Shown here: positions 9,940 to 26,604 of the stretch, piece by piece
Position numbering within the stretch: the stretch's first letter is position 1
Layout: the number at the start of each line of letters is the position of its first letter
Assembly: GCA_902622515.1 (NCBI GenBank)
Contig: CACNQE010000002.1
Location: 1 to 64,000 of the forward strand
Length of the DNA: 64,000 bases
Reading direction: 5' to 3'
Source of the DNA: an uncultured SAR116 cluster alpha proteobacterium
Lineage (GTDB): Bacteria; Pseudomonadota; Alphaproteobacteria; Puniceispirillales; Puniceispirillaceae
Notes under the pieces: model-generated
What the model was told of the DNA's origin: nothing
The model's database searches: none
Seen by the model: the letters and a program-made list of their open reading frames with translations, nothing else
Position numbers and translations under genes: made by a program

Positions 9940-10296
9940 CTATTCTATTGAATTTAAAACAGCATCGGGGATGTAGGTAGCAACTCTATCTAATTTGGTC
10001 ATAAACATGATACCCTTACCAGGTGTATCAAGTTTACCTGCTAGAAACATCGCTTCAAATATTAAATCAGCCTGGTCCTCTGATACGATAATTCGGATAA
10101 CTTCTTTTTGCTCGTCAATAGTAACGCCAAGTAATCCGAGACGTTCTCGTACTCCTGTACCTCGCGCATAATTAATAGTAGCACCTTGTGCACCACTGTT
10201 CTTAGCGGCTTCTAAAACTGTTTCTGCAAGATTATTTTGAACGACACATGTGATCATACATGCATTAGAAAGGTAAGTTATAGTTCGATTACTCAT
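9940..10296 (-). CDS. P-II family signal transduction protein
   Basis: 118 aa. The T-loop region (ARGTGVRERLGLLGV) and the B-loop-like AGKLDTPGKGIMFMTKLDRV match PII proteins that bind ATP/ADP and small effectors, but the uridylylated Tyr context of GlnB/GlnK is absent. It overlaps the DUF1538 gene by four bases (ATGA, 10293-10296), so the two are translationally coupled, as GlnK is with AmtB. I infer that it controls the DUF1538 transporter; it is not expected to be a general nitrogen regulator. Confidence 0.85.
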   Translation of the reverse strand: MSNRTITYLSNACMITCVVQNNLAETVLEAAKNSGAQGATINYARGTGVRERLGLLGVTIDEQKEVIRIIVSEDQADLIFEAMFLAGKLDTPGKGIMFMTKLDRVATYIPDAVLNSIE

Positions 10297-12053
10297 GATT
10301 GGTCCTTTACAAGAGCGTCTGACACAATTTCATCTTCTGTTGAGCTATCCTGGCTTTTATTCATTATTCTAATTACCACCCCCATAGTTAATACTGCTAT
10401 AATGGGACAGATACTAGCAAGGGACAATATTCCAAACCCTTCTACAGCAGAAACAGCATTTCCTAATCCTAATCCCATTGCTAACACCAGCGGAACAGTG
10501 ACAGGCCCTGTCGTAACTCCCGCGCTATCCCAAGCCACATTAACAAACTCCTCTGAAGATATAATTGTGAGCAGAACACCAACACCATAAAGCGGCAAAA
10601 GCACCATCATCAAGTCAAACCCTAAAACAAGTTTTGATATACCCAAAGCTATTCCGATGGCAACACCACTTGCAACACTATACATCAACATTTCTTTTTT
10701 AAAGGCACCATTGGTTAAGTTTTGTACAGTTATGCCAAGTGCGTTTAAAGCAGGTTCTGCTAAAGTAGCACCAAAACCGAGCAGAAAAGCAAAGCCAATC
10801 ACTATCGCAAGGCCAACCAATTCCGGATAAATTGGTGAGAATTGACTAATGGGCAACTCCATGAAAGCGGCGGGCAAAACACTTCCTGTTTGAGAACCAA
10901 TTGCACCAAGTCCATAAGTCAAACCAATGTTAAAAATACACATTCCTATTATGGAGAGAACAAGACCATAAATTGTAATCATTCTGTTAGGTAGTGAAGA
11001 TTTAAGAACAAGAAATAAAACCGCCATCAAGAAAAGTACCAACGGTAAAATAGCTCGCACACCTAGCACAATTTCAACAAGAGGGGTTTTTTCCCAAATT
11101 GAAGGTTCAGTTTGTATGGTAATGGCTGACATTTTTGCTGCGGCAATTATCTCTCCTGGAGATATAGTCAGCGAAACAAATATAGCTAAAACTAGAACTG
11201 CTAAGATAGGGAAAAGGGAGGCCATAGTTACCACACCAAAACCAGAAAGAGATGAATTGCCTTTTCCAGCAGCGTTTGCAATACCTATACCCAAGGAAAG
11301 AACTAAGGGCACCGTAACTGGGCCTGTTGTCACAGCACCACAATCCCATGCTAAACCGAGAATGCTCTTCAGATTTGGATCCAACCATGCATAAATAGTC
11401 AATAAAACAACGGGGAACAAAGCCCCATAAATCATTGGTTTGAGCGACCATCCCCGTACAAAACGAATTGTCCCAAGGATGGCTGCGATACCTACTCCGC
11501 CTCCAACCATAAGAACAAGCGGCATTGTCCAGTTGTTAAGAATTTCGTATAAATAAGGGGCAGCATTAACATCAACCGACGAACCAAATGCTTGTAGAGC
11601 ACCAATAGCAGGTTCTGCAAATGTTACACCAACACCCAATATACCAATAATACAAAGAACCACTGGCATTGAAGCTTTCTTTGGCAAATTATCTCCAATA
11701 ATTGTGCCAAATGGCATCAAACCAGTACTCAAACCTTCCATGAATACGGCAAGCCCTATGATTACTGCAATTAATCCGAGACACAAAATTAGAGCGGCCT
11801 CTATAGGATGCCGCAAAACTAAAATTTGAAAAATCATTAAATAGGCGGCTAGCGGTACAACAGCCTTTACTTGTTCCATAATTCGAGATGAACAATATGG
11901 TGCAAGCAAATCAAAAGCTTGCTTCGCAGAAAGCTCTATTTTTGGCGGGGTAAGCGAGCCTTTATCTTTAGACTTACTTTTTGATGTCAGTAAATTATAA
12001 CTCACCGTTCTGTGGCGAACATTCACTTGATTCAGATAGTCTGAGTATCGCAT
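10293..12053 (-). CDS. DUF1538 membrane protein with internal duplication; candidate Na+(K+)/H+ antiporter
   Basis: 586 aa, polytopic. Two homologous halves follow a soluble N-terminus of about 55 residues: FAEPAIGAL...AWDCGAVTTGPVTVPLVL in the first half and LAEPALNAL...AWDSAGVTTGPVTVPLVL in the second. Paired DUF1538 proteins (UmpA/UmpB of Halomonas) have been reported as Na+(Li+,K+)/H+ antiporters; here both are fused in one chain. The invariant acidic residues (AEPA, AWD) in each half are candidate ion ligands. Coupled by ATGA to a PII gene, followed by a PII-like gene and a CNB gene. Confidence 0.88.
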   Translation of the reverse strand: MRYSDYLNQVNVRHRTVSYNLLTSKSKSKDKGSLTPPKIELSAKQAFDLLAPYCSSRIMEQVKAVVPLAAYLMIFQILVLRHPIEAALILCLGLIAVIIGLAVFMEGLSTGLMPFGTIIGDNLPKKASMPVVLCIIGILGVGVTFAEPAIGALQAFGSSVDVNAAPYLYEILNNWTMPLVLMVGGGVGIAAILGTIRFVRGWSLKPMIYGALFPVVLLTIYAWLDPNLKSILGLAWDCGAVTTGPVTVPLVLSLGIGIANAAGKGNSSLSGFGVVTMASLFPILAVLVLAIFVSLTISPGEIIAAAKMSAITIQTEPSIWEKTPLVEIVLGVRAILPLVLFLMAVLFLVLKSSLPNRMITIYGLVLSIIGMCIFNIGLTYGLGAIGSQTGSVLPAAFMELPISQFSPIYPELVGLAIVIGFAFLLGFGATLAEPALNALGITVQNLTNGAFKKEMLMYSVASGVAIGIALGISKLVLGFDLMMVLLPLYGVGVLLTIISSEEFVNVAWDSAGVTTGPVTVPLVLAMGLGLGNAVSAVEGFGILSLASICPIIAVLTMGVVIRIMNKSQDSSTEDEIVSDALVKDQS

Positions 12054-12307: not shown

Positions 12308-12991
12308 ATGAACAAATCAGTTGCAACAAATGTTCTGGCTGTCGTAGCTGTTCTTGCTGGATATGTAATATTAGACTCAACACAAATCCTTTTTATGACT
12401 GGACTATTTGCACTTTCAGGCAGTGTTACCAACTGGCTTGCTATTCATATGCTTTTTGAAAAAGTGCCTTTGCTATATGGTTCTGGAATCATACCCAACA
12501 AATTTGAAGAATTCAAAATGGGTATAAAATCACTTGTGATGGAAGAATTTTTTAATCAAGAAAACATTACCTTCTTTTTAAAACAAACAGAGGAAAAGTC
12601 GAGGGAGTCTATCTATTCAAAAATTGACTATGACGTGATCTTTGAGAACTTATCGGATGCAATAATGACCTCTCAATTTAGCAGTATGCTTGGAATGTTT
12701 GGTGGCAAAAAAGCACTTGAGCCATTGAGGGAACCGGTTATTGATAAATTATCTGAAATTACCCAACAAATTATCGAGGCACCGAATAATAATTTATCTT
12801 CATCCAATATTGAAGAATTTAAAAACCAAATAGAAACAATACTTAATAATCGTTTAAAAGATTTAACGCCAGTGCAAGTAAAAAAAATTATTCAAGATAT
12901 TATTCAATCTCACCTTGGTTGGCTTGTTGTATGGGGTGGATTACTTGGTGGAGTTATAGGTTTTTCCTTATCATTGATTCAAAGTCTTTAA
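12308..12991 (+). CDS. DUF445 family inner-membrane protein
   Basis: About 227 aa from the ATG at 12308, preferred over an in-frame TTG at 12266 because AGGGA lies upstream. An N-terminal hydrophobic pair carries the DUF445 signature SGSVTNWLAIHMLFEKVP, then YGSGIIPNKFEEFKMGIK, a helical middle and a C-terminal membrane helix (WGGLLGGVIGFSLSLIQS). Function of the family is unknown (YheB-like). Divergent from the DUF1538 gene with about 250 bases between them. Confidence 0.85.
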   Translation: MNKSVATNVLAVVAVLAGYVILDSTQILFMTGLFALSGSVTNWLAIHMLFEKVPLLYGSGIIPNKFEEFKMGIKSLVMEEFFNQENITFFLKQTEEKSRESIYSKIDYDVIFENLSDAIMTSQFSSMLGMFGGKKALEPLREPVIDKLSEITQQIIEAPNNNLSSSNIEEFKNQIETILNNRLKDLTPVQVKKIIQDIIQSHLGWLVVWGGLLGGVIGFSLSLIQSL

Positions 12992-12994
12992 AAA

Positions 12995-13054
12995 ATCATT
13001 TGCTAACAAATCATATTAGTTCTTCATTTAAAAAATTGTTTGCTCAACAAATTG
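12995..13054 (+). repeat. Two copies of a TTTGCT(C)AACAAAT near-palindrome upstream of cbtB
   Basis: The copies lie at 12999-13011 and 13039-13052, exactly 40 bases apart from start to start (about four helical turns), each with ATTTG/CAAAT-like arms. They sit between the DUF445 stop and cbtB. This could be a tandem operator for the cobalt-uptake genes. No B12 riboswitch was recognised in this 236-base spacer. Confidence 0.4.
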
Positions 13055-13227
13055 GTAAGACTTTTAGATTAATTATGACAAAAATGTAAAAACTTGTTTT
13101 CTTTTAAAAAAATTTCAAAATCGTACTTGCACAAAATTTTTTTTCAATCTGTAATGCAGTTAGTATTGATGTTAAAATTTTAAAATGTTATTCAGCTTAA
13201 TTTAACTAAAAAAAAGAAAGGAAAGCG

Positions 13228-13398
13228 ATGGTTGCCTTCGTTCAGTCATTTAGCCAATCAAGATCCCAAATACTGTCCATTACTTTTGCTGCCTTGCTTG
13301 GCTTGCTTGTTATTTACGTAGCTGGTCATTCACAATCCCATATATTGCATGATGCTGCTCATGATGTGCGCCACGCAACAGGATTTCCCTGCCACTAA
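13228..13398 (+). CDS. cbtB: CbtB, small subunit of predicted cobalt transporter
   Basis: 56 aa, too short for many gene callers. Strong ribosome site (AAAGGAA) 7 bases before the ATG. One membrane helix (ITFAALLGLLVIYVAGH) is followed by a His-rich tail (HILHDAAHDVRHATGFPCH) ending with the CbtB-type PCH motif, plausible metal ligands. CbtB is the one-helix partner of CbtA in a predicted cobalt uptake system associated with B12 genes. cbtA follows 30 bases later. Confidence 0.92.
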   Translation: MVAFVQSFSQSRSQILSITFAALLGLLVIYVAGHSQSHILHDAAHDVRHATGFPCH

Positions 13399-13428
13399 CT
13401 TAATAAGCTATATAAGGGTTGTTTCTAC

Positions 13429-14118
13429 GTGTTTTTTCGAATTCTTGTCAGTGGTTTATTTGCGGGTTCACTCGGCGGCTTGATGGCCGGTTTGCTACAA
13501 TGGTATTTCGTACAACCCGTTCTTCTTCACTCAGAGCTTTATGAAACCGGCATTTTAAAGCATTTTGGTGAATTTACTAATGGCCCACAACAGAGCCTAG
13601 ACACACTACAACCAATTCGAGATGGACTTTCCCTCCTGTTCAGTATGATTATTTACATTGGCTATGCATTTTTACTCATTTCCGCAATGACACTGCGGTT
13701 GCAAACATCGAGTGATAGGATTACGTTTCATCAAGGTATAGTTTGGGGTATAATTGGATATATCGCTGTTCATCTTGCACCAGCCATTTCACTTCCACCT
13801 GAAGTACCAGGAGTTGCAGCAGCAGAGGTTCAATCTCGTCAAATTTGGTGGTTTACAACAGTTTTTCTTTCCGTAATTGGGATTTGGCTAATTGCCTTCA
13901 AACCAAAAATTAAATACTTTTTTATTGGGAGCGCTTTGATAATTGCTCCTCATATTTTTGGGGCTCCTGAACCAGACGTGTTTACGGGCCCCGCACCAAC
14001 AGAAATTGGTGCCCTTTTTGCCAGCCGAGCTTTGGGAATAGGTCTAGTTTCATGGGCTATTCTAGGAGGGTTGTCTGCTTTTTTTCTTCATAAAGAAACT
14101 GTGCGTACTGCTAGCTAA
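13429..14118 (+). CDS. cbtA: CbtA, membrane subunit of predicted cobalt transporter
   Basis: 229 aa, GTG start after AAGGG. Several membrane helices; N-terminus FFRILVSGLFAGSLGGLMAGLLQ and the conserved HLAPAISLPPEVPG and GAPEPDVFTGPAPTEI segments are CbtA hallmarks. Together with CbtB it is predicted to import cobalt for the adjacent cobalamin genes. Predicted from family and context; direct transport data for this family are limited. Confidence 0.92.
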   Translation: MFFRILVSGLFAGSLGGLMAGLLQWYFVQPVLLHSELYETGILKHFGEFTNGPQQSLDTLQPIRDGLSLLFSMIIYIGYAFLLISAMTLRLQTSSDRITFHQGIVWGIIGYIAVHLAPAISLPPEVPGVAAAEVQSRQIWWFTTVFLSVIGIWLIAFKPKIKYFFIGSALIIAPHIFGAPEPDVFTGPAPTEIGALFASRALGIGLVSWAILGGLSAFFLHKETVRTAS

Positions 14119-14160
14119 TTTAGTCCTTACAGAAAAATTAAATAAAGGCTTTTATTACTA

Positions 14161-14676
14161 ATGAGAAAAATAGACTTCCGTTTACTTGGCCTATGCGCTA
14201 TTGGCTTTATTTTCAGTGGGCTTATTGGCTTTATGATTGCTGGTGCGAACAATGTTACATTTGATGGTCATAAACATAATATGAACCATTTAGACAACTC
14301 ATACCACGGAGGCAAAACTAACCACTCAGAAACCCATGCAGAGCCTATTGCGATCCCTAAAAATGGGTTGGAACCATTTATAAGAGCAGAACTCCAAAAT
14401 GACCCTGTATCTGGATTTAATCTACATCTCGTTACCAGTAATTTTACATTCGCGCCAGAATATGCTGGGCTCAAACATAAAGATGGGATGGGGCATGCTC
14501 ATTTGTATATTGATGAACATAAAATTGCTCGACTTTATAATAGCTGGTTTCATATCGACACAATACCCGAAGATGCAAAGCAAATGCGAATAACATTAAA
14601 CAGTAACGATCATAGACCATTTATGGCTGATAATAAGATTATTTCAGCTGTTATTGAATTAAATGCAAAACCCTAG
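14161..14676 (+). CDS. Membrane-anchored His-rich protein of the cobalt-uptake unit
   Basis: 171 aa. An N-terminal helix (about 8-30) anchors a periplasmic domain. Just outside the membrane is a His-dense linker (DGHKHNMNH, then HGGKTNHSETHAE), then a compact beta-rich domain with GMGHAHLYIDEHKIARLY and NSNDHRPF. Its place 42 bases after cbtA suggests periplasmic capture or delivery of cobalt. I do not recognise a named family. Its TAG stop shares CTAG (14673-14676) with the stop of the convergent DUF1636 gene. Confidence 0.75.
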   Translation: MRKIDFRLLGLCAIGFIFSGLIGFMIAGANNVTFDGHKHNMNHLDNSYHGGKTNHSETHAEPIAIPKNGLEPFIRAELQNDPVSGFNLHLVTSNFTFAPEYAGLKHKDGMGHAHLYIDEHKIARLYNSWFHIDTIPEDAKQMRITLNSNDHRPFMADNKIISAVIELNAKP

Positions 14677-15023
14677 ATTGGAGGAATTTTTGCATGCAAT
14701 AAGTGACGAAAACTTCCGCAGCCTGTTGCATCTTCAATCCATCCGTCATCAGCAGCTAGATAAAGTTTACATGTTGCTATCAAATCTGCTTGGTCTTTTT
14801 TTATATCAACGTTTTTGAAAACATAAGTTGTTCTATTTGGCGATTGAAGTGTCAAACTGACAGGCGATGTGCAAACACCTAAACAAGGTGAGCTAATTAT
14901 ATTGGCATTTAGTTCTGCTTTCTGCAAAGCAACTTGAAGATTTTTACAATCGTAATCATCCGGAATACTCTTATCAGTCACAGGTTTACAAGACCGGCAT
15001 ATTTGCAGGTGCAAATCAACCAT
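14673..15023 (-). CDS. DUF1636 metal-binding-type protein
   Basis: 116 aa from the ATG at 15023, which overlaps the cobS stop in TAATG; a longer frame to 15056 would run into cobS and is not needed. Cys residues in ICRSCKP, SPCLGVC and a C-terminal ATGC suggest a thioredoxin-fold [2Fe-2S] or metal-binding protein. The family is often found beside cobalamin genes; its function is not known to me. Coupling to cobS supports a role in late B12 synthesis or metal handling. Confidence 0.8.
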   Translation of the reverse strand: MVDLHLQICRSCKPVTDKSIPDDYDCKNLQVALQKAELNANIISSPCLGVCTSPVSLTLQSPNRTTYVFKNVDIKKDQADLIATCKLYLAADDGWIEDATGCGSFRHLLHAKIPPI

Positions 15024-15781
15024 TAAACCGCATATATTGATGCTAACATTACCCAACCCATTGTCTCACTCAGTAATTGACCAGCTCCACAGACATCACC
15101 TGTCTGACCTCCTATCTGATATTTTGCAATAACTCCCCAAAAAATAGCAATTACTAACATTGAAATAATTACATATACAAAACTAAAGACACCAAAATAA
15201 AAAGCGGGTAATGCGATGATAGCTGCAAAAAAAAGGGGAGTTATGTTATCTGCAGAAGCTTGATTGCCAAGCCCTTCTTGTTTTGCTGCTGGTAAAAAAC
15301 ATAAGTATCCAACCATGGAGAATCTGCTAATAACAGCACAGATAATTATACCAGTAGCAATTTCTGTTGTTGAGGGAAGAGATGACAACATTAAGATGCG
15401 TAATCCCATTACCATAATAAGCGCAAGCATTCCAAAGCTTCCAATGGCACTATCTGTCATAATCGTAATTTTTTTTTCTTTATTTTGACCACCGCCAAAA
15501 CCATCCGCACAATCTGCAAGCCCATCCTCGTGAATGGCCCCTGTGCAAAAAATACCAAAAATTAATGCAAAAATAGCTGAGGCAAAGGAAGGTAGCATAA
15601 ATTGTGATGTGGTTATGTAAATACCTGCGATAATTCCACCAACAACAAATCCAACTACTGGAAAGGCCCATGCCGAATCTGTCAATTTAGGGACATAAGT
15701 ATTGAGTTTGCCTGCAGGAAGGCGCGTCAGAAGCAAAAAGGCTGTTTGCACCTCTGCTACGCGTTTAACAGTCCATTTCAT
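15023..15781 (-). CDS. cobS: Adenosylcobinamide-GDP ribazoletransferase (cobalamin synthase)
   Basis: 252 aa integral membrane enzyme that joins AdoCbi-GDP to alpha-ribazole (phosphate). The signature GAIHEDGLADCADGFGGG with its Asp cluster for Mg2+ is complete, and most of the rest is membrane helix. I prefer the ATG at 15781, which overlaps the cobT stop (TGATG), to the TTG one codon earlier. CobV in Pseudomonas naming. Confidence 0.96.
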   Translation of the reverse strand: MKWTVKRVAEVQTAFLLLTRLPAGKLNTYVPKLTDSAWAFPVVGFVVGGIIAGIYITTSQFMLPSFASAIFALIFGIFCTGAIHEDGLADCADGFGGGQNKEKKITIMTDSAIGSFGMLALIMVMGLRILMLSSLPSTTEIATGIIICAVISRFSMVGYLCFLPAAKQEGLGNQASADNITPLFFAAIIALPAFYFGVFSFVYVIISMLVIAIFWGVIAKYQIGGQTGDVCGAGQLLSETMGWVMLASIYAV

Positions 15782-16785
15782 CAATTATTTATTCCTAGTT
15801 CTTCAAAGGTGGCCATATGGTTATGGCATGCTACAGCGGCTTTAAGAATACTTAAGGCAAGCGCTGCACCAGTACCCTCACCTAATCGCATATTTAGGTC
15901 AAGAATTGGTTTTTTGTTCATTAATTGAAGTAACTTTTGATGGCCTGGTTCAGCTGATTTATGCCCAACGAGACAATGGTCTAATAAACTGGAAGACATT
16001 GCATATAATGGCGCTGCAGCTGCTGTGCATATGAATCCATCGAGTAATACTGGTATAGATGCCGATCTTGCTGCTAATATTGCCCCACAAATGGCAGCTT
16101 GTTCCCTGCCACCAAAGGCTAGAATCGCTGATAAATCAGAACATAGTCCATGTTTTGCTATACCTTCTTCAATAATACCTATTTTATGAGCAACTCCTTT
16201 TTTATCAGAACCTGTTCCTACTCCAACCCAATCAGCAACTCTCCCTCCGAAAACACTTGCAGCAAGGGCAGATGAAACTGTTGAGTTACCAATCCCCATT
16301 TCACCAAGAAGAACAATATTAGCACTTCTGTTAACAGATTTTATCCCTGCTGACATCGCATCGAGTAGCTCTGTCATGCTCATTGCCTTTGTTTGGGTAA
16401 AGTCCTGGGTTGGGGAATCCAGTGACAAAGGTTTTACGGTTAACTCGGCACCACTCAAAGTGCACAACTGATTCATTGCAGCACCACCATTTTCAAAATT
16501 TGAAACCATAAGTTGAGTTACTTCTTGCGGGTATGGGTTTACTCCTTGCTCACAGATTCCGTGATTTCCAGCAAAAATAATAGCTTGTGCAGTTTCAATA
16601 ACTGGCCTCTCACTATTCTGCCAACCTGCCAAAAACACAGCCAATTCCTCTAGCATCCCCAGCGAGCCAGACGGCTTGGTTAATTGGTCTTGATAGACCG
16701 ATGCAGCCGCTTCAGCTTGCATATTTTTGTTTGGCATAGTGATAATAAAATCATCTACCATTTGTAAATTGGAAATGTTATCCAA
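15781..16785 (-). CDS. cobT: Nicotinate-nucleotide-dimethylbenzimidazole phosphoribosyltransferase
   Basis: 334 aa. Makes alpha-ribazole phosphate from NaMN and dimethylbenzimidazole. Recognised by GEMGIGNSTVSSAL, the GVGTGSD loop and the C-terminal RLGEGTGAALAL with the catalytic Glu. TTG start at 16785 is supported by GAGAGGA six bases upstream. Lies between cobU (21-base gap) and cobS (1-base overlap). CobU in Pseudomonas naming; not the cobaltochelatase subunit of the same name. Confidence 0.95.
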   Translation of the reverse strand: MDNISNLQMVDDFIITMPNKNMQAEAAASVYQDQLTKPSGSLGMLEELAVFLAGWQNSERPVIETAQAIIFAGNHGICEQGVNPYPQEVTQLMVSNFENGGAAMNQLCTLSGAELTVKPLSLDSPTQDFTQTKAMSMTELLDAMSAGIKSVNRSANIVLLGEMGIGNSTVSSALAASVFGGRVADWVGVGTGSDKKGVAHKIGIIEEGIAKHGLCSDLSAILAFGGREQAAICGAILAARSASIPVLLDGFICTAAAAPLYAMSSSLLDHCLVGHKSAEPGHQKLLQLMNKKPILDLNMRLGEGTGAALALSILKAAVACHNHMATFEELGINN

Positions 16786-16806: not shown

Positions 16807-17316
16807 CTAGGGCTTTAGTTTTAGTGGTATACCAGAGATACATGTATAGACTTCATTAACAGCCTCAGCTACAACCTGGTTAAGACGGCCAGCTTCATCA
16901 CGAAACCGTCTTGCTAACTCATTTTCAGGTATTATTCCGCTTCCCACTTCATTGGTAACTAAAATCACGGGGTCACGTCGAGCAGTGATGGCTTCAATCA
17001 AAGAAGAAGTTGCTGTGGACACATCCTTTTCTGCAAACATAAGATTTGAAAGCCATAATGTTAAACATTCAACAAGGCATACTCCTTGCCCATCTAGGGC
17101 AAACAATTTATCTGCAATTTCTATGGGTTCGTTTACAGTGAGCCACTCATCTCCTCGCCTTTGTTTGTGAATTTGAATTCGTTTTTCCATTTCTTGATCG
17201 TAGGCCTTTGCTGTTGCAATATAAATTACGGATGTACCATAGCTAAGAGTCTGTTTTTCAGCAAAACTACTCTTTCCAGAACGAGCACCACCAGTTATTA
17301 ATAATGAAAAAGCCAT
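16807..17316 (-). CDS. cobU: Adenosylcobinamide kinase / guanylyltransferase
   Basis: 169 aa bifunctional enzyme: phosphorylates AdoCbi and transfers GMP to give AdoCbi-GDP. The P-loop GGARSGKSSFAE is at residues 8-19; LVTNEVGSGIIPEN and the RRFRDEAGRLNQ segment are typical. First gene of the minus-strand unit cobU-cobT-cobS-DUF1636. CobP in Pseudomonas naming. Only 43 bases separate its start from the divergent cobC. Confidence 0.96.
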   Translation of the reverse strand: MAFSLLITGGARSGKSSFAEKQTLSYGTSVIYIATAKAYDQEMEKRIQIHKQRRGDEWLTVNEPIEIADKLFALDGQGVCLVECLTLWLSNLMFAEKDVSTATSSLIEAITARRDPVILVTNEVGSGIIPENELARRFRDEAGRLNQVVAEAVNEVYTCISGIPLKLKP

Positions 17317-22258: not shown

Positions 22259-23296
22259 ATGCAAAATATCACAAAAATACCAGTTACTATAATCACGGGT
22301 TTTCTAGGCTCAGGAAAAACCACTCTAATTTCTCAACTAATGAAAAATCCTCTTGGGAAAAGATTGGCTGTAATCGTCAATGAGTTTGGTGATATTGGCG
22401 TTGATGGAGAAATTCTCAAGGGATGTGCAATTCCTAATTGCCCAGAAGAAAATATTATGGAGTTGGCTAATGGCTGCATTTGCTGCACCGTAGCAGATGA
22501 TTTTATTCCAACGATCGAAAAATTAATGTCACTTTCACCTAAACCGGAGCATATCTTAATTGAAACCTCGGGCCTCGCATTACCAAAGCCACTGCTTAAG
22601 GCTTTCGAATGGCCAGCCATTCGTTCTAAAATTACAGTTGATGGCGTTATTGCACTTGCAGATGCCGAAGCTGTTTCTTCGGGTCAATTTGCGCCTAATA
22701 TTGCAGGCGTAAAAGCACAACGAAAATTAGATAATTCGATTGATCATGAAACCCCTTTATCTGAAGTATTCGAGGATCAAATTGCATGTGCTGATCTCAT
22801 CTTACTGACAAAAGCTGACCTTGCCAGCAGTTCTGATAAGAAAAAAGCAAAACGTGTTATTGCAAATAACACAATCCGCCACCCCCCCATTATCGAGGTG
22901 GTGGAAGGTCAAATAGACCCTAGACTTATTCTGGGATTAGAGGCTGAAGCGGAAAATGATATTGAGCAGCGCCCCTCACATCATGATAACGAGCCGGAGC
23001 ATGACCATCAAGACTTCGAAAGTGCCATTTTTAATATAGCAGAGTTAGAATCGCCAGAAATTCTTCTAAATAAAATAAAGATACTGGCAAACGAACAACA
23101 CATTCTAAGAGTAAAGGGGTTTGTTTCCATTACCGGTAAGCCTATGCGGCTTCTTGTTCAGGCAGTAGGCTCACGTGTGCGCTCACAATTTGATAAAATG
23201 TGGCATCCAGATGACATTCGTCGAGGTCAAATTGTTGTAATTGCCGAACATAATCACATCAATATACCTGCGATTAAAGAAATTTTAGAAAGCTAA
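22259..23296 (+). CDS. cobW: CobW, G3E-family metallochaperone GTPase
   Basis: 345 aa. G1 motif GFLGSGKTTLIS (about 13-24), VNEFGDIGVDGE, the metal-binding CxCC in NGCICCTV, and guanine motif LTKADL. A His/acid-rich insert (HHDNEPEHDHQDF) precedes the C-terminal CobW_C domain. The family delivers metal in a GTP-dependent manner; beside cobN it is expected to handle cobalt. First gene of the long plus-strand operon, 8 bases before cobN. Confidence 0.94.
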   Translation: MQNITKIPVTIITGFLGSGKTTLISQLMKNPLGKRLAVIVNEFGDIGVDGEILKGCAIPNCPEENIMELANGCICCTVADDFIPTIEKLMSLSPKPEHILIETSGLALPKPLLKAFEWPAIRSKITVDGVIALADAEAVSSGQFAPNIAGVKAQRKLDNSIDHETPLSEVFEDQIACADLILLTKADLASSSDKKKAKRVIANNTIRHPPIIEVVEGQIDPRLILGLEAEAENDIEQRPSHHDNEPEHDHQDFESAIFNIAELESPEILLNKIKILANEQHILRVKGFVSITGKPMRLLVQAVGSRVRSQFDKMWHPDDIRRGQIVVIAEHNHINIPAIKEILES

Positions 23297-23304
23297 ACTG
23301 AAAA

Positions 23305-26300
23305 ATGCACGTCCTTTTCGTAGAAAGACATGGATTAGAAGAAACAGAGATACCAGTAGACCTAGATCACAGACCCGCAGACCTTGTGATTCTCTCTTTT
23401 TCAGACAGTGACCTAAGTACTTTTGCAGCTGGCTGGCATCGCGCTAAAAAGCTAAATAATGAGGTGTTTCCAAGCGTTAGAATTGCTAATCTTTCCCTTC
23501 TCAAACATCCTATTTCAGTTGATACCTATATTGAAAAAACCTTATGCCACGCCAAAGGTATTCTCGTTCGGCTCATCGGTGGTGTGCCATACTGGTCCTA
23601 TGGGCTCAGTCAAGTAGCCCAAATTGCAAAAAAAAATAATATAGCCTTTGCTGCTATATCAGCAGATGGCCGTACTGACTTGCAACTTGATGAGATATCA
23701 ACAGTACCAATCTCAACTTTGCGACGCTTACAATATTATTGTGAAATGGGGGGCGAAATTGCAGCACATTCTGCTTTAGCTCAATTAGCGTTGGCAGCGG
23801 GACTTTACGTAAGTCCTGTTAGTGGAAGTAAGATGATAGGCAACGTTGGCGGTTGGACACCAGAATATAACATATGTTGTCCGTTTATCTCACGCGGCTA
23901 TGAAACTAAACCTGTCATCCTTATCACCTTTTATCGCTCATATATTACATCAGCTGACCTTAAACCAATTGCAGCTTTATTCCATAAATTACGTAACTAT
24001 GGATTTGCTGTAATGAGTTTATTTGTACCATCCTTAAAAGCACCTGAAGCAGCCGCTTGGTTAGAAAAACAAATATTATATTTTTCACCCTCACTCATAG
24101 TAAATGCTACATCATTTTCAGGGAAAGGTAAGGATGGAAACTCCCCGCTTGATAAGGCCAATGTTCCAGTTTTCCAGATAGCACTCTCAACATCAAACCG
24201 TGCCGTATGGGCAGAAGCTGCCAGGGGTCTCTCACCAGCTGATATGGCAATGCATGTTGTATTACCAGAAGTAGATGGCAGAATATTTGCTGGGGTGGCG
24301 TCTTTTAAAGAACCAGAAGAAATGGATGAGGCTTTGCAATTCGCACCTGTCGGCCATCAACCTGATGAGGAACGAATTAACGCCATATGCGCTAAAATTG
24401 TAAATTGGTATACATTACAAAAAACCCCTATTCCAAGGCAAAAACTAACACTTATCCTATCCACTTACCCCGGTCGGCCTTGGCAAATGGCGCATGCTGT
24501 TGGACTTGATGCTATTGCATCCGCTCAAGCGATATTAGAGGATTTAGGTTATAATATAGAAACAAAAGAGGAATCTTTTGAGAGGCTTCTTACTCATAAA
24601 ACCATGTCTTGGAATATTGCATCCTATAAAACCGCTTTAAGCGAAGTGCCTTTGAGTCTTCAAGAAGAGTTGTATTCTGTATGGGGGGCACCCGAAGCTG
24701 ATCTACTCGCTGTGGATGGTAGTTTCAAGTTTACCAGTTTGTCATTTGGAAATGCTCTGGTTGCATTGCAACCAGAGCGCGGAATTAAACAAAATAGAGA
24801 AGGTGAATACCATGATATCTCACGAACTCCATGTCATAGTTATGTTGCTTTTTATTTATGGCTCCAAAAAGTAATGAAAGTGGATGCCATTATTCATGTT
24901 GGGGCACATGGAACCTTAGAATGGCTTCCAGGAAAAGCTGTAGCATTGTCAGATAATTGCTGGCCAGAAGTATTGGCGGGAAATATGCCGATCATTTATC
25001 CGTTCATAATTAATGACCCTGGTGAAGCAGCGCAGGCAAAGAGAAGGATTAGTGCAGTAACTTTGGGTCATATACCGCCACCTCTTAAGAAAGCTAACAC
25101 TCCGGAACAATTCAGTCAGTTGGAATCATTGCTTGATGAGTTCTCCATCGCAGATGGTCTAGATCCAAAAAGACGCGATAGGCTAAAGAGTGATATTATC
25201 TGTGAAGCAGAGTCACTCGGAATAGCAAAAGATTTAGAGGTAAATTCTAAAAAAGACCCTGCAGATATACTTACAAGAATTGACGCATTTGTCTGTGATA
25301 TTAAGGAGAGCCAATTTGCAGATGGTTTACACATTTTTGGCAGAGGGGGACAAAGGCAAACAGTCTTCGACACCACTTTATCAGTTTCCAATGAACGTCA
25401 ATCCATCATCGATGCCCTATCTGGTAAAATGATTGCTGCAGGACCATCCGGTTCTCCTTATAGAGGAAGGCAAGATGTACTGCCATCTGGAAGAAATTTA
25501 TTCTCAACTGACCCGCTTTCAGTTCCAACTAAAGCTGCCTATAAGCAGGGTATTAAACTAGCTGAAGAATTTCTAAGACGTAGTTTACAGGATACAGGTG
25601 AATGGCCATCTGGGGTAATTGTAGACTTATGGGGCTCAGCAACAATGAGGACAGCTGGTGAAGAATTTGCTATGGCGCTTCACTTGATAGGTGTAAAACC
25701 AAATTGGTCGGAAGGTTCTGATAGAGTTATAGGTTTTGAAATTTTGCCCTTGGCTATATTAGACAGACCAAGAATCGATACAACCTTGCGTGTATCAGGT
25801 CTATTCAGAGATGTATTCCCAACTTTATCATCATTATTTCAGCAAGCGATTGATGCATTGTGTAAACGAGATGAACGTAAAGATTTTAATCCTTACGTTG
25901 GATCAAAAGAGGAAGATTCAGCACGTATATTTAGTTCAGCACCAAACTCCTATGGTCTTAGTATGGGTGATGCTGCTGAACATTTTAATGCAGCAGGCAG
26001 AAACAGGGTTGCAAATGCCTGGATTAATGCTAGCCAATTTGCGGTAAATGGCTCTAAAGTAATTCAAAATAAGCAGGCACTTATATCTCGCATTCAGAAA
26101 GCAGATAGCTTTATTCATATGCAAGATTTAAGAGAGACGGATATCCTAATATCCTTAGATTATGCGGCTCATGAAGGCGGATTTGCTGCTGCAAAAGCAG
26201 AACTTGGTGGGAAGGTAAATCTCTATCATTTAGATAATACAAATCCAGAAAATCCTATCACTAGAAGCCTTTCTGAGGAAATTGCAAGGGTTGTATATGC

Positions 26301-26604
26301 AAGAGCTTCCAATCCTAAATGGATTGATAGCATGATGCGTCATAGGCATAGAGGAGCTGCAGAGATTGCTGCCACGTTATTACATATGGCAGCTTTTGCA
26401 AATTTAGCGAATGCCGTTGGGAGTCATCTTTTTGATAGTTTCCACGACGCTACTCTTGGAAATCAGGAAATTGTTTGTTTTATGCAGGAAGCTAATCCAG
26501 AAGCACTTAAAGCCATGCAAGACTGTTTTGAAAAATTATATAAATCTGGTTTGTGGCAAACTAGGCGCAATTCTATTTATGCTAATCTCGAGACGGTAGA
26601 ATGA
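23305..26604 (+). CDS. cobN: Aerobic cobaltochelatase large subunit CobN
   Basis: 1099 aa, inserts Co2+ into hydrogenobyrinic acid a,c-diamide with ATP. Family blocks include MGNVGGWTPEYN-like GNVGGWTPEYNI, HVGAHGTLEWLPGKAVALSDNCWPE and the C-terminal LDYAAHEGGFAAA. Somewhat shorter than the about 1270-residue Pseudomonas protein. The AAA/VWA ATPase partners (Pseudomonas CobS and CobT) are not in this window. Overlaps cobG by four bases. Confidence 0.96.
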   Translation: MHVLFVERHGLEETEIPVDLDHRPADLVILSFSDSDLSTFAAGWHRAKKLNNEVFPSVRIANLSLLKHPISVDTYIEKTLCHAKGILVRLIGGVPYWSYGLSQVAQIAKKNNIAFAAISADGRTDLQLDEISTVPISTLRRLQYYCEMGGEIAAHSALAQLALAAGLYVSPVSGSKMIGNVGGWTPEYNICCPFISRGYETKPVILITFYRSYITSADLKPIAALFHKLRNYGFAVMSLFVPSLKAPEAAAWLEKQILYFSPSLIVNATSFSGKGKDGNSPLDKANVPVFQIALSTSNRAVWAEAARGLSPADMAMHVVLPEVDGRIFAGVASFKEPEEMDEALQFAPVGHQPDEERINAICAKIVNWYTLQKTPIPRQKLTLILSTYPGRPWQMAHAVGLDAIASAQAILEDLGYNIETKEESFERLLTHKTMSWNIASYKTALSEVPLSLQEELYSVWGAPEADLLAVDGSFKFTSLSFGNALVALQPERGIKQNREGEYHDISRTPCHSYVAFYLWLQKVMKVDAIIHVGAHGTLEWLPGKAVALSDNCWPEVLAGNMPIIYPFIINDPGEAAQAKRRISAVTLGHIPPPLKKANTPEQFSQLESLLDEFSIADGLDPKRRDRLKSDIICEAESLGIAKDLEVNSKKDPADILTRIDAFVCDIKESQFADGLHIFGRGGQRQTVFDTTLSVSNERQSIIDALSGKMIAAGPSGSPYRGRQDVLPSGRNLFSTDPLSVPTKAAYKQGIKLAEEFLRRSLQDTGEWPSGVIVDLWGSATMRTAGEEFAMALHLIGVKPNWSEGSDRVIGFEILPLAILDRPRIDTTLRVSGLFRDVFPTLSSLFQQAIDALCKRDERKDFNPYVGSKEEDSARIFSSAPNSYGLSMGDAAEHFNAAGRNRVANAWINASQFAVNGSKVIQNKQALISRIQKADSFIHMQDLRETDILISLDYAAHEGGFAAAKAELGGKVNLYHLDNTNPENPITRSLSEEIARVVYARASNPKWIDSMMRHRHRGAAEIAATLLHMAAFANLANAVGSHLFDSFHDATLGNQEIVCFMQEANPEALKAMQDCFEKLYKSGLWQTRRNSIYANLETVE

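Follow-up and report, generated by a model that had tools for sequence, protein, structure and literature searches.

In the 64,000-nucleotide stretch of DNA analysed here (the window), the gene HIS follows cbtB and cbtA and encodes an anchored His-rich protein. We lean towards reading HIS as a bitopic protein that serves the cobalt importer CbtAB as an accessory component in some lineages of CbtA; there it would collect Co2+ and pass it to CbtB/CbtA. Four observations support this reading: the gene order, a riboswitch in relatives, conserved helix and His positions, and the B12 cluster context. Judged from sequence, HIS is a newly proposed candidate component of CbtAB, a system already known by prediction; it is not universal there, and we infer its metal. 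To our knowledge, the mechanism of CbtAB is not worked out, and a third, conserved component under the same B12 switch offers a concrete handle on it. The supply of cobalt and B12 by marine alphaproteobacteria (such as SAR116 and roseobacters) also matters for plankton. The genes around HIS in the window are as follows:

cbtB: 13228..13398, + strand; short membrane protein of 56 aa (PF09489, E 6.6e-21).
cbtA: 13429..14118, + strand; 229 aa with a GTG start (PF09490, E 1.5e-40; TIGR02458, 204.4 bits with a cut-off of 182.9).
HIS: 14161..14676, + strand; anchored His-rich protein of 171 aa, an ORF without family match for which orthologues were found.
DUF1636 gene: 14673..15056, − strand; convergent, with a 4-bp overlap with the end of HIS (PF07845, E 4e-17).
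cobS: 15023..15784, − strand (PF02654, E 9.2e-48).
Putative cobT: 15781-16785; between cobS and cobU, judged by look alone.
cobU/cobP: 16807..17316, − strand (PF02283, E 4.7e-60).
cobW: 22259..23296, + strand (PF02492, E 2.7e-54).
cobN: 23305..26604, + strand; cobaltochelatase large subunit (PF02514, E 1.1e-239).

HIS starts 42 bp past the end of cbtA. CbtB has, from reading of its sequence, a C-terminal His-rich tail, and its score against TIGR02459 (64.0 bits) is slightly below the cut-off of 64.4. The same cluster also contains cobD, cobO, cbiC, a part of CbiG, and two CobB/CobQ-type proteins. Convergent overlap of HIS with the DUF1636 gene recurs at three other loci (4 bp in L177, 17 bp in L178 and L179). 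The source genome has 2.1 Mb, and the CbiM and NicO transporter families, the two that were tested, gave no match in it. Hence, CbtAB is the plausible cobalt route of this genome. Further upstream in the window (9940-12053, − strand), a DUF1538 protein is encoded whose halves resemble the antiporter subunits UmpA and UmpB below the cut-off; a P-II-like protein adjoins this gene.

Within HIS, we distinguish the following parts, all on the + strand:

14182..14247: transmembrane anchor, residues 8-29 (predicted helix at 6-27 in the structure model).
14263..14277: juxtamembrane DGHKH, residues 35-39, conserved among linked representatives.
14278..14367: variable His-rich linker, residues 40-69.
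14368..14664: outer beta domain, residues 70-168, with a weak immunoglobulin/fibronectin-like model.
14491..14502: GHAH motif, residues 111-114, invariant throughout alignment A1 (28 sequences).
14551..14553: H131, nearly invariant in A1.
14611..14613: H151, in an N-x-N-D-H stretch, invariant in all 28 A1 sequences.

The initial annotation had described HIS as the third gene after cbtB and cbtA, with one helix, a His-dense linker, and a His-bearing beta-rich domain. This description was borne out: the ORF is exact, and the helix and the beta strands (mostly past residue 89) are predicted, in a weak model with a mean pLDDT of 56.2 and a pTM of 0.50 from an alignment of only 5 sequences. His makes up 13 of the 171 residues (binomial P ~1.3e-5 vs the window background). 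The background is 1.77% (313/17,705) over 47 other ORFs with a maximum of 4.0%; these ORFs were hand-picked, nearly all from a set of 63, and overlapping ORFs and those beyond 59,780 were omitted. For the linker, whose borders were set after inspection, the count is 6 His in 33 residues (binomial P 2.2e-5). Orthologues in close relatives are 91-93% identical, and dN/dS is 0.26-0.43 for HIS (three comparisons) vs 0.12-0.16 for CbtA (two comparisons). These orthologues, the dN/dS values, and 28 aligned sequences with invariant columns lead us to conclude that HIS is a real gene.

No confident match for HIS was obtained in Pfam, NCBIfam, or the PDB, and a profile search of PDB sequences came back empty. 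Fold comparison with the weak model (pLDDT 56) gave a best Z of 7.6; the listed rows (5.4-7.6) are of many kinds, and the best Foldseek E is 0.063. Placing metal sites or assigning a function from the model and the fold lists was rejected because the model is too weak and the fold matches are middling.

Alignment A1 comprises 28 sequences with identity down to 23%. It has 13 invariant columns (P72, D81, G85, G111, H112, A113, H114, Y116, K121, R124, Y126, L146, and H151), and N87, F95, G109, W129, and H131 are nearly invariant. More distant homologues diverge, with GHGH in G153 and no GHAH in G349. Fifteen representatives of the members linked to cbtAB all share the anchor residues G20, G23, F24, and A27. 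Juxtamembrane H37 is present in 15/15 and H39 in 14/15 of them, and the linker, as aligned, has H49 in 14/15 and H59 in 15/15. The mean share of the commonest residue in this set is 0.77 for the juxtamembrane part, 0.69 for the helix, 0.61 for the domain, and 0.38 for the linker, and the stretch from helix to domain (28-61 residues) contains 5-9 His in every representative. The helix is at least as tightly conserved as the domain, which suggests a membrane partner.

In the tree of the outer domain, the linked members cluster (3 changes vs 15.5 in shuffles); several deep forks are unsettled and long branches meet. A single clade of linked CbtA is neither rejected (p-AU 0.257) nor demonstrated in a CbtA tree of 55 rows, 7 of them with less than half of the columns filled, with unsettled bootstrap and one extreme branch. 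This tree covers a part of the CbtA matches: the distant CbtA group L127-L132 missed the local profile, and L003-L005 were dropped as repeats. The pattern of helix plus DGHxH, defined after viewing the linked members, marks homologues that lie in CbtA genomes in 19 of 19 cases, compared with 9 of 25 for pattern-less homologues; these counts are descriptive only and leave out six plasmid rows, G127, G666, and G808. Helix and DGHDH are also kept without cbtA linkage in 4/6 genomes of the genus g20, and DGHDH is present in G134, whose HIS gene neighbours one for PCu(A)C. Thus, having the anchor motif does not prove partnership with Cbt. On viral contigs, a pattern search gave 7 matching stretches, none of which held up. 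A Bacillus phage tail-sheath protein (L042 604-2466) shows a weak likeness to the HIS domain (26.5%, E 3e-6), perhaps from a shared beta fold.

We followed the linkage of HIS to cbtAB in three partly overlapping genome samples (order, class, and phylum) and on plasmids. The set cbtB-cbtA-HIS was seen in genomes of the SAR116 type, in other alphaproteobacteria, and on plasmids. Among the 136 genomes of the order sample, 30 have HIS, 19 have CbtA, and 18 have both. A HIS homologue is present in 18/19 CbtA genomes vs 12/117 CbtA-less genomes (Fisher P 1.2e-13, uncorrected for descent), and the genes are adjacent on one contig in 10 of the 18 (the window's own genome G000, G097, G099-G105, G122). 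Within the window's genus, cbtB-cbtA-HIS lie on one contig in 9/10 genomes; in the tenth (G098), one contig ends in cbtB and a cut cbtA, and another begins with HIS. In G127, cbtB-cbtA stand at one contig end, and HIS with a convergent DUF1636 gene starts another. Six genomes of g20 (G129-G134) have cbtA and HIS apart, the HIS of G132 and G134 being of a distinct type.

The class sample (387 genomes) has HIS in 25 genomes and a CbtA match in 97, of which 95 are above the cut-off. Both genes are found in 11 genomes, apart in 4 and adjacent in 7 (G000, G265, G168, G189, G453, G514, and G197, with only a short HIS match that contains a stop). The phylum sample (397 genomes) has HIS in 14, adjacent in five (G000, G265, G853, G653, G668). 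As 90/97 CbtA genomes of the class sample have no adjacent HIS, CbtAB normally functions without HIS. HIS is not an obligate or universal Cbt part. The proposal of the initial annotation that HIS belongs to the Cbt system is supported for the subfamily of the window protein, with its order conserved across genera and plasmids and its riboswitch in relatives.

HIS occurs in 21 plasmid records, 7 of which were examined. The cbtB-cbtA-HIS set is present on the Labrenzia, Leisingera, and Pontibrevibacter plasmids, where the annotation of HIS is "hypothetical protein"; the copies on a Sulfitobacter and two Loktanella plasmids have no annotated cbt genes within 5-6 kb. On a Roseibium plasmid (L035 4676-6917), a cut-down cbtA follows trbC/trbD, HIS and the DUF1636 gene look intact, and neither cbtB nor a riboswitch was found; a cut-down cbtA match of this type is present in 8 plasmid records. 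DUF1636 is close by in 10/13 linked loci outside the window's genus (absent at L159, L162, and L163) and in 8/9 further loci of the genus (absent at L065). In G265, one strand reads riboswitch-cbtB-cbtA-HIS-DUF1636-cobW-cobN.

A cobalamin riboswitch (Rfam, 102-121 bits) is located directly before cbtB in 9 of the 13 linked loci outside the window's genus (L036, L037, L038, L157, L158, L159, L177, L178, L179), and no match was obtained for L035, L162, L163, and L074. B12-box-like stretches had been seen by reading upstream of the cassettes, and the riboswitch was then confirmed with Rfam. The control search covered 23 homologue loci (3 + 20); L078 and L022 are the same gene and L028 is the cut-off G127, leaving 21 distinct loci not next to cbtA, and a riboswitch was found in none. 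Flanks in the set of 20 were at most 1.5 kb, which is about the needed reach; in the plasmid cassettes, the riboswitch begins ~1.2 kb before HIS. Where HIS lies apart (g20) or was not found (G135), the riboswitch is at cbtBA in 5/5 loci searched (L092, L094, L095, L097, L098). For g20, this means 4/4 searched cbtBA loci and none at HIS, and cbtBA of G127 (L096) gave no match.

In the window's own genus, the riboswitch was found in 0/4 loci searched. It is absent from the window at the gathering score, from 12900-15300 at a permissive threshold, and from the whole genome, the same genome-wide search being positive in 8/14 control genomes. The window's genome has a large B12 cluster but no cobalamin riboswitch match; related genomes of the order carry one at cbtBA. 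Reading upstream sequences of six genus members by eye (window, L063-L066, L070), we recognised no shared operator.

The description of HIS as a periplasmic cobalt collector feeding CbtAB, made in the initial annotation, fits the gene context. For the orientation of HIS, the metal bound, the contact with CbtAB, and the direction of transfer, we infer the following. HIS would span the inner membrane with its N-terminus inside and its outer domain in the periplasm. The His linker together with GHAH, H131, and H151 of the outer beta domain would collect Co2+, while the conserved helix would dock on CbtA or CbtB. The juxtamembrane DGHxH could then relay the ion via CbtB's His tail to CbtA. Inside the cell, cobalt would go to CobN/CobW for B12.

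Outside Cbt loci, the outer domain appears in other metal contexts. When the 28 A1 members were scanned with Pfam/NCBIfam, no significant named family was obtained for the outer domain, except for the PCu(A)C part of one member (PF04314, E 1.9e-8). A PCu(A)C domain is in one chain with the HIS domain in G262 (E 6.2e-17), G153 (3.7e-9), and G452 (1.4e-16), and, by annotation, in the Sulfitobacter plasmid copy. A PCu(A)C gene adjoins HIS in G134, and the homologue of G132 has an untyped neighbour gene of a size similar to that gene. The window's HIS gave no match to PF04314 at E up to 10. The initial annotation had named co-occurrence with cbtAB as a check, and the linkage was found for the subfamily described above. 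It does not extend to the outer-domain family, which is not tied to cobalt because many homologues are unlinked and PCu(A)C is a fusion partner or neighbour of some. The refuting condition given in that annotation, homologues unlinked to cbtAB or binding other metals such as Cu, therefore applies by half.

Molybdenum-type genes form another setting. XdhC, MobA-like, and TauE genes lie beside HIS in G129 (g20). Two of the 12 CbtA-less HIS genomes of the order were typed, and in both (G124, G088), HIS comes after an isochorismatase-type gene; further upstream in G124 are an AA_synth gene and a molybdenum-hydroxylase subunit. Since the outer domain stands with copper- and molybdenum-type genes elsewhere, it may bind several metals or be re-tuned. 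Copper may also be its preferred metal, or it may favour no metal in particular. HIS of L085, L087, and L079 forms a distinct clade without the DGHxH anchor motif. An isochorismatase-type gene directly precedes HIS in L085 and L087, and AA_synth and a molybdenum-hydroxylase subunit lie upstream in L085. In four further genomes (G188, G441, G501, G198; loci L160, L169, L170, L173), the HIS domain continues into a stretch that looks like a cupredoxin, judged by eye; Pfam gave no match for this stretch in the two tested, L160 and L169.

These copper contexts raise the alternative that HIS is a module for periplasmic metals in general, copper above all, which was recruited by chance beside cbtAB and may shield CbtAB or the cell against copper instead of carrying cobalt. 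We consider this rather unlikely. It would account for the PCu(A)C fusions and neighbours, and in G122 (L074 2612-5973), cbtB is preceded by a divergently oriented RND pair (CusB/HlyD-like and AcrB-like). However, the B12 riboswitch at nine linked loci and at none of the unlinked loci searched speaks against it, as does the finding that the fused copper-type proteins of G153, G262, and G452 are without the helix and DGHxH anchor pattern, although G134 has DGHDH.

It is less probable still that HIS is no feeder and serves as a cobalt sink or buffer that limits or reports cobalt toxicity. Such a role would suit a His-rich, anchored protein, and excess cobalt is harmful according to one report (PMC13108547). 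The riboswitch of the importer, however, would raise HIS when B12 is low, which is when a sink would be least useful, and this weakens the sink reading. That HIS helps CbtAB to assemble or stay stable, with the helix as the part that matters and the His residues incidental, seems very improbable: conservation is highest in the juxtamembrane and helix columns, but GHAH and H151 are invariant across the 28 aligned sequences, anchor-less members included.

Returning to HIS as an accessory part of the cobalt importer, a wider reading can be put forward tentatively. CbtAB in some alphaproteobacterial lineages could be a three-part importer, its third member being a bitopic protein whose metal-binding beta domain, of a new and unnamed kind, takes up cobalt in the periplasm and delivers it at the membrane face. 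The domain would itself be a general extracytoplasmic metal-delivery module adopted by cobalt uptake, copper chaperones, and molybdenum-enzyme operons. The outer domain is without a named family yet recurs in metal contexts.

Several known systems can be compared with HIS. CbtAB, the predicted cobalt transporter (PF09490/PF09489), shares with it the gene set and, in many relatives, the riboswitch, and CbtB is likewise a short protein with a His-rich stretch, in this case the tail. HIS matches neither of the CbtAB families, however, and most cbtA genes in the class sample lack it as a neighbour. The periplasmic copper chaperone PCu(A)C shares a chain with the HIS domain in some wider-family members, whereas the window's HIS is without a match. 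DUF4399 and DUF6130 each hit one of the 28 A1 members far from significance (E 0.07 and 0.08), and neither matched the window's HIS; both presumably have an H-x-H pattern similar to that of HIS. Compared with Pfam/NCBIfam at E up to 10 with HMMER filters on, HIS gave no NikK/NikL or CbiN match, judged by the models that we take to cover these proteins. The portions of the literature on CbtAB, DUF1636, and the cobalamin riboswitch available to us name no third anchored part, and an earlier mention is possible.

For DUF1636, a thioredoxin-like [2Fe-2S] ferredoxin fold is proposed in one study (PMC4520260). In Methylococcus, growth was improved by cbtB knock-down and by lower CoCl2, results that count for CbtAB as a cobalt importer (PMC13108547). 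The role of CbtA is described as awaiting experimental confirmation in another (PMC4771312). NikK/NikL and CbiN are small extra components of ECF nickel/cobalt importers (PMC2667541). Their partner is an ECF transporter, whereas that of HIS would be CbtAB, and no sequence family in common was found; by analogy, HIS would work likewise, as a small extra component of its own importer.
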